This document shows, piece by piece, positions 25,057 through 25,553 of a DNA stretch of 45,087 nt. Origin of the DNA: Microcaldota archaeon (lineage in GTDB: Archaea > Micrarchaeota > Micrarchaeia > Norongarragalinales > UBA8480); contig JAHFHC010000008.1 of NCBI GenBank assembly GCA_023247085.1, positions 1 to 45,087 of the forward strand, written 5' to 3'. A program made the translations under genes and the position numbers. The notes beneath the pieces were generated by a model that was not told where the DNA came from, ran no database searches, and saw nothing but the letters and a program-made list of their open reading frames with translations. The stretch's first letter is position 1. Each line of letters begins with the position of its first letter.

Positions 25057-25253
25057 GGGGGATTGGGCTAGCCTGGCTATGCTTCCAGCTTTGGGAGAGC
25101 CTTTTCTTTTTTACAAAAAAGAAAAGCCTCGGGAAAAGAAAAAACCCGTACGCTCAAAAAAAGCTGGAGACCTGAGTCAACCTTTTCTTTTCAAAAAGAA
25201 AATGTTGATGAAAAGAAAAATAGGTTGCAGGTATTCGAATCTCAGATCCCCCA
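25057..25253 (+). tRNA. tRNA-Pro(TGG) with two introns: 25096-25161 (37/38) and 25177-25233 (T-stem/T-loop, 53/54)
   Basis: Acceptor GGGGGAT/ATCCCCC + A73; CCAGC-TTTGGG|A-GCTGG anticodon arm; CTGAG|TTCGAAT-CTCAG T-arm only contiguous after intron removal; intron 2 BHB: CCTG/CAGG helix, AGT and TAT bulges, inner CAACC/GGTTG; spliced length 74. Confidence 0.85.
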
Positions 25254-25267
25254 TTTATTTTTTTTGC

Positions 25268-25350
25268 AAAGAAAATGTGTATAGCTTTTTTAACATGGTT
25301 TATCCTATTTTTACTTGGAAAGTTCCCGCCTTAGCTCAACGGTAGAGCAC
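25268..25350 (+). repeat. Direct repeat copy 1: promoter region + tRNA-Tyr 5' half (tRNA part 25325-25349)
   Basis: AAAGAAAATGTGTATAGCTTTTTTAAC...CTATTTTTACTTGGAAAGTTCCCGCCTTAGCTCAACGGTAGAGCAC nearly identical to 25389-25471. Confidence 0.9.
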
Positions 25351-25388
25351 TCAACGCGCGCCTTTCTTTACAAAAGAAAGCCGCAGGG

Positions 25389-25471
25389 AAAGAAAGTGTG
25401 TATAGCTTTTTTAACGCTCTTTATCCTATTTTTACTTGGAAAGTTCCCGCCTTAGCTCAACGGTAGAGCAC
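25389..25471 (+). repeat. Direct repeat copy 2: promoter region + start of complete tRNA-Tyr
   Basis: 83-bp near-identical direct repeat, offset 121 bp from copy 1. Confidence 0.9.
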
Positions 25472-25553
25472 CCCGCTGTAGCACTGTAATCTCACTTTTA
25501 AAAGTGAGACAATAGAAACGGGGCGGTTGTTGGTTCAAATCCGACAGGCGGGA
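25446..25553 (+). tRNA. tRNA-Tyr(GTA) with 36-nt intron at 37/38 (25482-25517)
   Basis: CCCGCCT/AGGCGGG + A73 (C1-G72 as in archaeal tRNA-Tyr); CCCCG-CTGTAG|A-CGGGG; GTTGG-TTCAAAT-CCGAC; intron hairpin TCTCAC-TTTTAAAA-GTGAGA; relaxed BHB CTGT/ATAG. Confidence 0.92.

Follow-up and report, generated by a model that had tools for sequence, protein, structure and literature searches.

We conclude that positions 25057-25253 of the window, by which we mean the whole 45,087-nucleotide stretch of DNA analysed here, hold a working tRNA-Pro(UGG) gene interrupted by two members of a family of mobile BHB introns. We give this reading, which is drawn from sequence and comparison, a probability of roughly three in four. 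Many introns of the family carry a core of three short strands (P1a, P1b and a third strand), and the family is phylum-wide and apparently undescribed.

The interrupted tRNA-Pro(UGG) gene

A preliminary description of the window had proposed a tRNA-Pro(UGG) with two introns, and both the isotype and the introns are supported by the acceptor arm, by a splice search and by intron-free orthologs. The acceptor stem is formed by GGGGGAT (25057-25063) and ATCCCCC (25246-25252), and A73 is at 25253. The features of the gene are as follows.

25057..25253, + strand: tRNA-Pro(UGG) gene; exons 25057-25095, 25162-25176 and 25234-25253
25096..25161, + strand: intron 1, 66 nt, position 37/38, relaxed BHB (from sequence, fold and alignment with the G002 ortholog)
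25101-25112, 25115-25126 and 25133-25144: core of intron 1 (P1a, P1b and third strand, the last within a CGGG/CCCG hairpin)
25177..25233, + strand: intron 2, 57 nt, position 53/54 (T-stem/T-loop joint), relaxed BHB
25183-25191, 25194-25202 and 25211-25219: core of intron 2 (P1a, P1b and third strand)

With the splice positions in the D, anticodon and T arms all left free, a search recovered the gene unguided and placed the T-arm intron at exactly 25177-25233. On tRNA score alone the anticodon-arm cut is ambiguous, because seven A's stand before GCTGG and several cuts are possible within this run; the BHB register picks 25096-25161, which yields T33, the anticodon UGG and G37. By eye and in the folds, both introns show a BHB or relaxed BHB at both junctions. 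That of intron 1 consists of the stem CCAGC/GCTGG, a centre TTTG/AAAA with one G.A mismatch, the bulges GG-A and AA-A (cut at the hyphen) and an inner GAGC/GCTC helix. Intron 2 had been called a textbook BHB. Its ACCUG/CAGGU pairing, AGU bulge and inner CAACC/GGUUG helix are all present in the unconstrained minimum-energy fold of the T-arm region (z -4.3), but its outer helix is weak (2 bp), and the motif is therefore relaxed rather than full. The minimum-energy fold of the whole pre-tRNA has a z of -5.3; the helices framing both introns are present there and in the T-arm region fold, and minimum-energy folding also yields the intron 1 P1 hairpin and the intron 2 BHB.

Relatives carry the same gene in filled and empty states. 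Two genomes of the same order (G014 and G017) encode an uninterrupted tRNA-Pro(UGG) that reads CCAGC-TTTGGGA-(GC/GT)TGG and CTGAG-TTCGAAT-CTCAG, so that its anticodon loop and T-arm equal those of the predicted spliced product. Within the genus, G002 has both introns in a locus that is 93% identical, and G001 shares the exons but has a single intron (37/38); it reads CCTGAG-TTCGAATCTCAG with no insert in the T-arm, and intron 2 is thus precisely absent. The uninterrupted arms of the two more distant relatives and this empty site bear out both pairs of junctions. The T-arm intron is thus a gain or loss inside the genus, precise to a single base. The 37/38 intron of G001 (L139) is unlike that of G002 and of the genome under study (G000) at the same site, which indicates a replacement or an independent gain.

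Removal of the introns restores a normal tRNA-Pro, as judged from the splice search, the intron-free orthologs and the empty site within the genus. As anticipated in the preliminary description, tRNA finders miss the gene: neither ARAGORN nor Rfam RF00005 reports it. The Rfam models of group I and group II introns do not match its introns. A second, intact tRNA-Pro(UGG), which that description had named as evidence against its reading, was not found in the genome (92% complete), nor was any similar copy.

The genome is a metagenome assembly of 892 kb in 36 contigs, and it encodes the enzymes that splicing would require. Its EndA is split into two frames where the assembly has a run of N (in most relatives it is a single frame of 380-430 aa), and the catalytic-plus-C-terminal part matches the epsilon2 enzyme of ARMAN-2 (4fz2, 9w2k) with E=3.7e-82, in keeping with an earlier prediction that a relaxed-specificity EndA would be encoded. 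Epsilon2-type EndA is known for its broad specificity (PMC6379350), and it is from ARMAN-2 that the specificity of the present enzyme for relaxed motifs is taken. The ligase RtcB is encoded as well (2e-172). The epsilon2 endonuclease would cut the relaxed BHB joints of pre-tRNA-Pro after transcription, and RtcB would then join the exons. A core element flanked by 29-nt direct repeats occupies the spacer immediately 3' of the gene for EndA (G000:C26:3846, L056).

The intron family and its three-strand core

What goes beyond the preliminary description is that the two introns belong to a multi-copy, lineage-wide family with a three-strand core. The hairpin TTTCTTT...AAAGAAA occurs in 46 copies in the genome, against 7 for a reversed control. 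The window has three of these where 0.16 are expected, and all three fall within 25103-25395; chance or A-richness as its source is ruled out by the reversed-pattern control and by shuffles. A tRNA solver found, with good scores, 25 interrupted tRNA genes with 44 predicted introns (8 in the D-arm, 18 in the anticodon arm and 18 in the T-arm), the individual junctions of which are approximate. A general tRNA model places just 11 tRNAs above its cut-off in the same genome, next to these approximately 25 genes with predicted introns. The P1 hairpin is present in 24 of the 44 introns and is followed by a matching downstream purine strand in 23 of the 24; neither is found in the other 20. The 16S rRNA gene (L057 713-2267, minus strand) also holds a family member, near 1592. 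A 132-nt T-loop intron (L058, G000:C29 5266-5397) contains one sense and one antisense core.

Across the phylum, the full core pattern was detected in 64 of 296 genomes, against 8 for the reversed control; two large families of the phylum are almost entirely without it, and two Aenigmatarchaeota genomes have it. The same introns are also present in the named Micrarchaeota genomes nzgw34 and LacPavin, which suggests Candidatus Micrarchaeota as the lineage of the genome under study. No Rfam family matches these mini-introns, and we found no description of the family, or of a three-strand core in BHB introns, in the open literature.

The core consists of a pyrimidine strand (P1a), a tight loop of mostly 3-4 nt, a purine strand (P1b), a linker of 5-20 nt (most >6) and a second purine strand. 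In asymmetric copies this third strand complements P1a in parallel orientation and hence mirrors P1b, as illustrated by the multi-C examples TTTTTCTTTCTCC / AAAAAGAAAGAGG and TCTCTTTTCT / AGAGAAAAGA. The parallel match is perfect in 134 of 170 copies, against 29 for the antiparallel one and a permutation mean of 49 (maximum 59), although the copies are related by descent and the permutation test overstates their independence. In 178 copies selected for at most one mismatch, G stands opposite 247 of 257 C.G pairs and A opposite 1461 of 1469 T.A pairs, where G never occurs (T.A+A 1461, T.A+G 0, C.G+G 247, C.G+A 8); this selection inflates the counts, and the loci were partly fetched with core-favouring patterns. 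In an orthologous intron pair of G000 and G002 all three strands differ in concert. A mirror image is not made by any copying process, and the pattern is therefore most naturally read as the result of selection on a three-strand fold.

Two other pairings were considered. An alternative duplex, with the third strand antiparallel to P1a, is possible just for symmetric copies such as that of intron 2 and was rejected for asymmetric ones. An A-minor triple in the minor groove is disfavoured, since G and not A faces the C.G pairs. The Y-R-R order with a mirror third strand is that of a class II intrastrand triplex, and purine-motif triplexes of this class, with the same code, have been described in bacterial DNA (PMC4666352). 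The core falls outside the ITxF loop rule (1-6 nt), which belongs to the search program and not to the chemistry. We infer that the core can form such a triplex and that it may be conserved for this ability.

Where the core acts is a separate question. It is probably needless for splicing, because nearly half of the introns lack it yet leave well-formed tRNAs. Most likely it would help the cassette to propagate in the form of folded single-stranded DNA, which is the weakest step of the proposed mechanism. Alternatively, the core could act in RNA, as a rod with a triple-strand clamp that presents the BHB to EndA or guards the excised intron, with the spread of copies being secondary. The introns within tRNAs are nearly universally in sense orientation, a bias that a purely DNA-level role of the core does not explain by itself; the outer helix covaries (copies of G058 show compensatory changes), and the minimum-energy folds include both the P1 hairpin (intron 1) and the BHB (intron 2). 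However, purine-motif triplexes are said to be unable to form in RNA (PMC4666352), 20 of the 44 introns do without the core, and some copies are found next to tRNAs or within spacers, and we consider a role in RNA unlikely. A lone antisense copy (L069, G043:C39) is found inside a 122-nt anticodon-arm intron, where, as RNA, its order would be that of the pyrimidine motif.

Proposed spread of the introns and the search for a mover

Within a single genome, different tRNAs can carry near-identical introns. Many tRNAs of G058 have one and the same intron in the T-loop, and four tRNAs of G012 share one cassette at T-loop and anticodon sites. Other copies, outside intact tRNAs, are located at the joints of direct repeats of 17-75 nt, and the left repeat copy usually ends approximately 5 nt before P1a. 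The window offers an example: a third core copy lies approximately 100 bp downstream of tRNA-Pro, at the joint of a duplicated 5' half of tRNA-Tyr.

25268..25350, + strand: left copy of an 83-nt direct repeat (leader and tRNA-Tyr 5' half), adjoining the third element
25362..25395, + strand: third core element, outside an intact tRNA; P1a 25362-25369, P1b 25373-25380, third strand 25388-25395
25389..25471, + strand: right copy of the 83-nt direct repeat, continuing into the complete tRNA-Tyr
25446..25553, + strand: tRNA-Tyr(GUA), with a 36-nt anticodon-loop intron that has no three-strand core

The two repeat copies are 94% identical. The tRNA-Tyr half copy is retained in G002, although the repeat there aligns over no more than 27 nt. 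At L075 (G025:C30) an element lies at the joint of the duplicated 5' end of a gene for an alpha-NAC-like protein.

Because of the filled and empty sites, the near-identical copies in different tRNAs and the flanking repeats, we infer that the family spreads. It would do so by copying a cassette of 55-70 nt into tRNA genes, mostly at the T-loop and at 37/38, and sometimes by inserting it in rRNA or beside genes with a long target duplication. The best reading is that these are mobile BHB introns ("archaeal introners") that may spread through tRNA genes and be rendered harmless by EndA and RtcB. The fuller proposal, in which such introns are propagated phylum-wide via an intrastrand triple helix kept by three-way covariation, is tentative and falls somewhat short of even odds.

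No recombinase could be linked to the family. The IS200/IS605 Y1 transposase TnpA was absent from G000, G001, G002, G012, G018, G028, G040 and G058, and an IS200/IS605-derived MITE is disfavoured, since the motif-rich genomes have no TnpA and its occurrence does not correlate with the motif. A different route would be homing, in which conserved arms of the tRNA genes are cut by an endonuclease and the intron is copied in during repair. This would suit the same T-loop intron in many tRNAs of G058, and a lead is given by a free-standing LAGLIDADG_3 protein of 221 aa (G000:C16:11082-11747), found in a search of G000 alone, whose gene has a tRNA interrupted in the T-loop on one side and an intact tRNA-Val on the other. 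Nevertheless, insertion also takes place at 37/38 and in the D-loop, where the sites are unlike in sequence, and homing alone does not make long target duplications, which leaves this route improbable and behind a role of the core in RNA. Two more LAGLIDADG matches fall within very long frames at C3 and C20 and are likely inteins.

That the tRNA-Pro locus is a pseudogene, a chance fold or an assembly artefact is hardly credible: the assembly is a draft from a metagenome with a run of N within its EndA gene, but G002 holds the same locus, G001 shares the exons and has one intron, the exon sequences are identical to those of intact orthologs, and the hairpin occurs in the window far above expectation.

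Relation to known systems and significance

The mobile BHB introns proposed here resemble known archaeal BHB tRNA introns processed by EndA and RtcB in their relaxed joints, in the presence of several introns per tRNA, in their T- and D-loop sites and in the broad-specificity EndA. They differ in a core common to unlike sites across the phylum and in the 53/54 site in tRNA-Pro. Earlier work (PMC4033280, PMC6379350, PMC8450103 and PMC4090602) already describes tRNAs with several introns, introns in the T-loop, epsilon2 EndA and the transposition of introns. Transposition of tRNA introns in Thermoproteales (Fujishima 2010, as cited in PMC4033280 and PMC4090602) likewise yields near-identical introns in different tRNAs of one genome, but it concerns another phylum, and the review descriptions in these two sources mention no such structural signature; PMC4090602 calls the mechanism of transposition unknown.

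The TMECO/BoxC elements of E. coli (PMC4666352) share the 5'-Y-R-R-3' order, the A.A-T / G.G-C code and the multi-copy nature of the core. TMECO is G/C-rich and bacterial, whereas the core is A/T-rich, has a longer second loop (5-20 nt) and resides in archaeal tRNA introns. Eukaryotic introners, which are mobile spliceosomal introns, are also intron cassettes that spread and are removed by host splicing; in contrast, the present family would be removed by EndA and RtcB and targets tRNA and rRNA, and no homology is implied.

Since one phylum combines a structural signature with young multi-copy families and with both filled and empty sites, intron gain becomes accessible to direct study. Sequence-level evidence that a triple helix is under selection is rare, and the three-way covariation supplies such a case. 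Should the triplex form in RNA instead, it would represent an extended purine-motif triple helix in natural RNA, of a kind that the cited literature deems impossible (PMC4666352).
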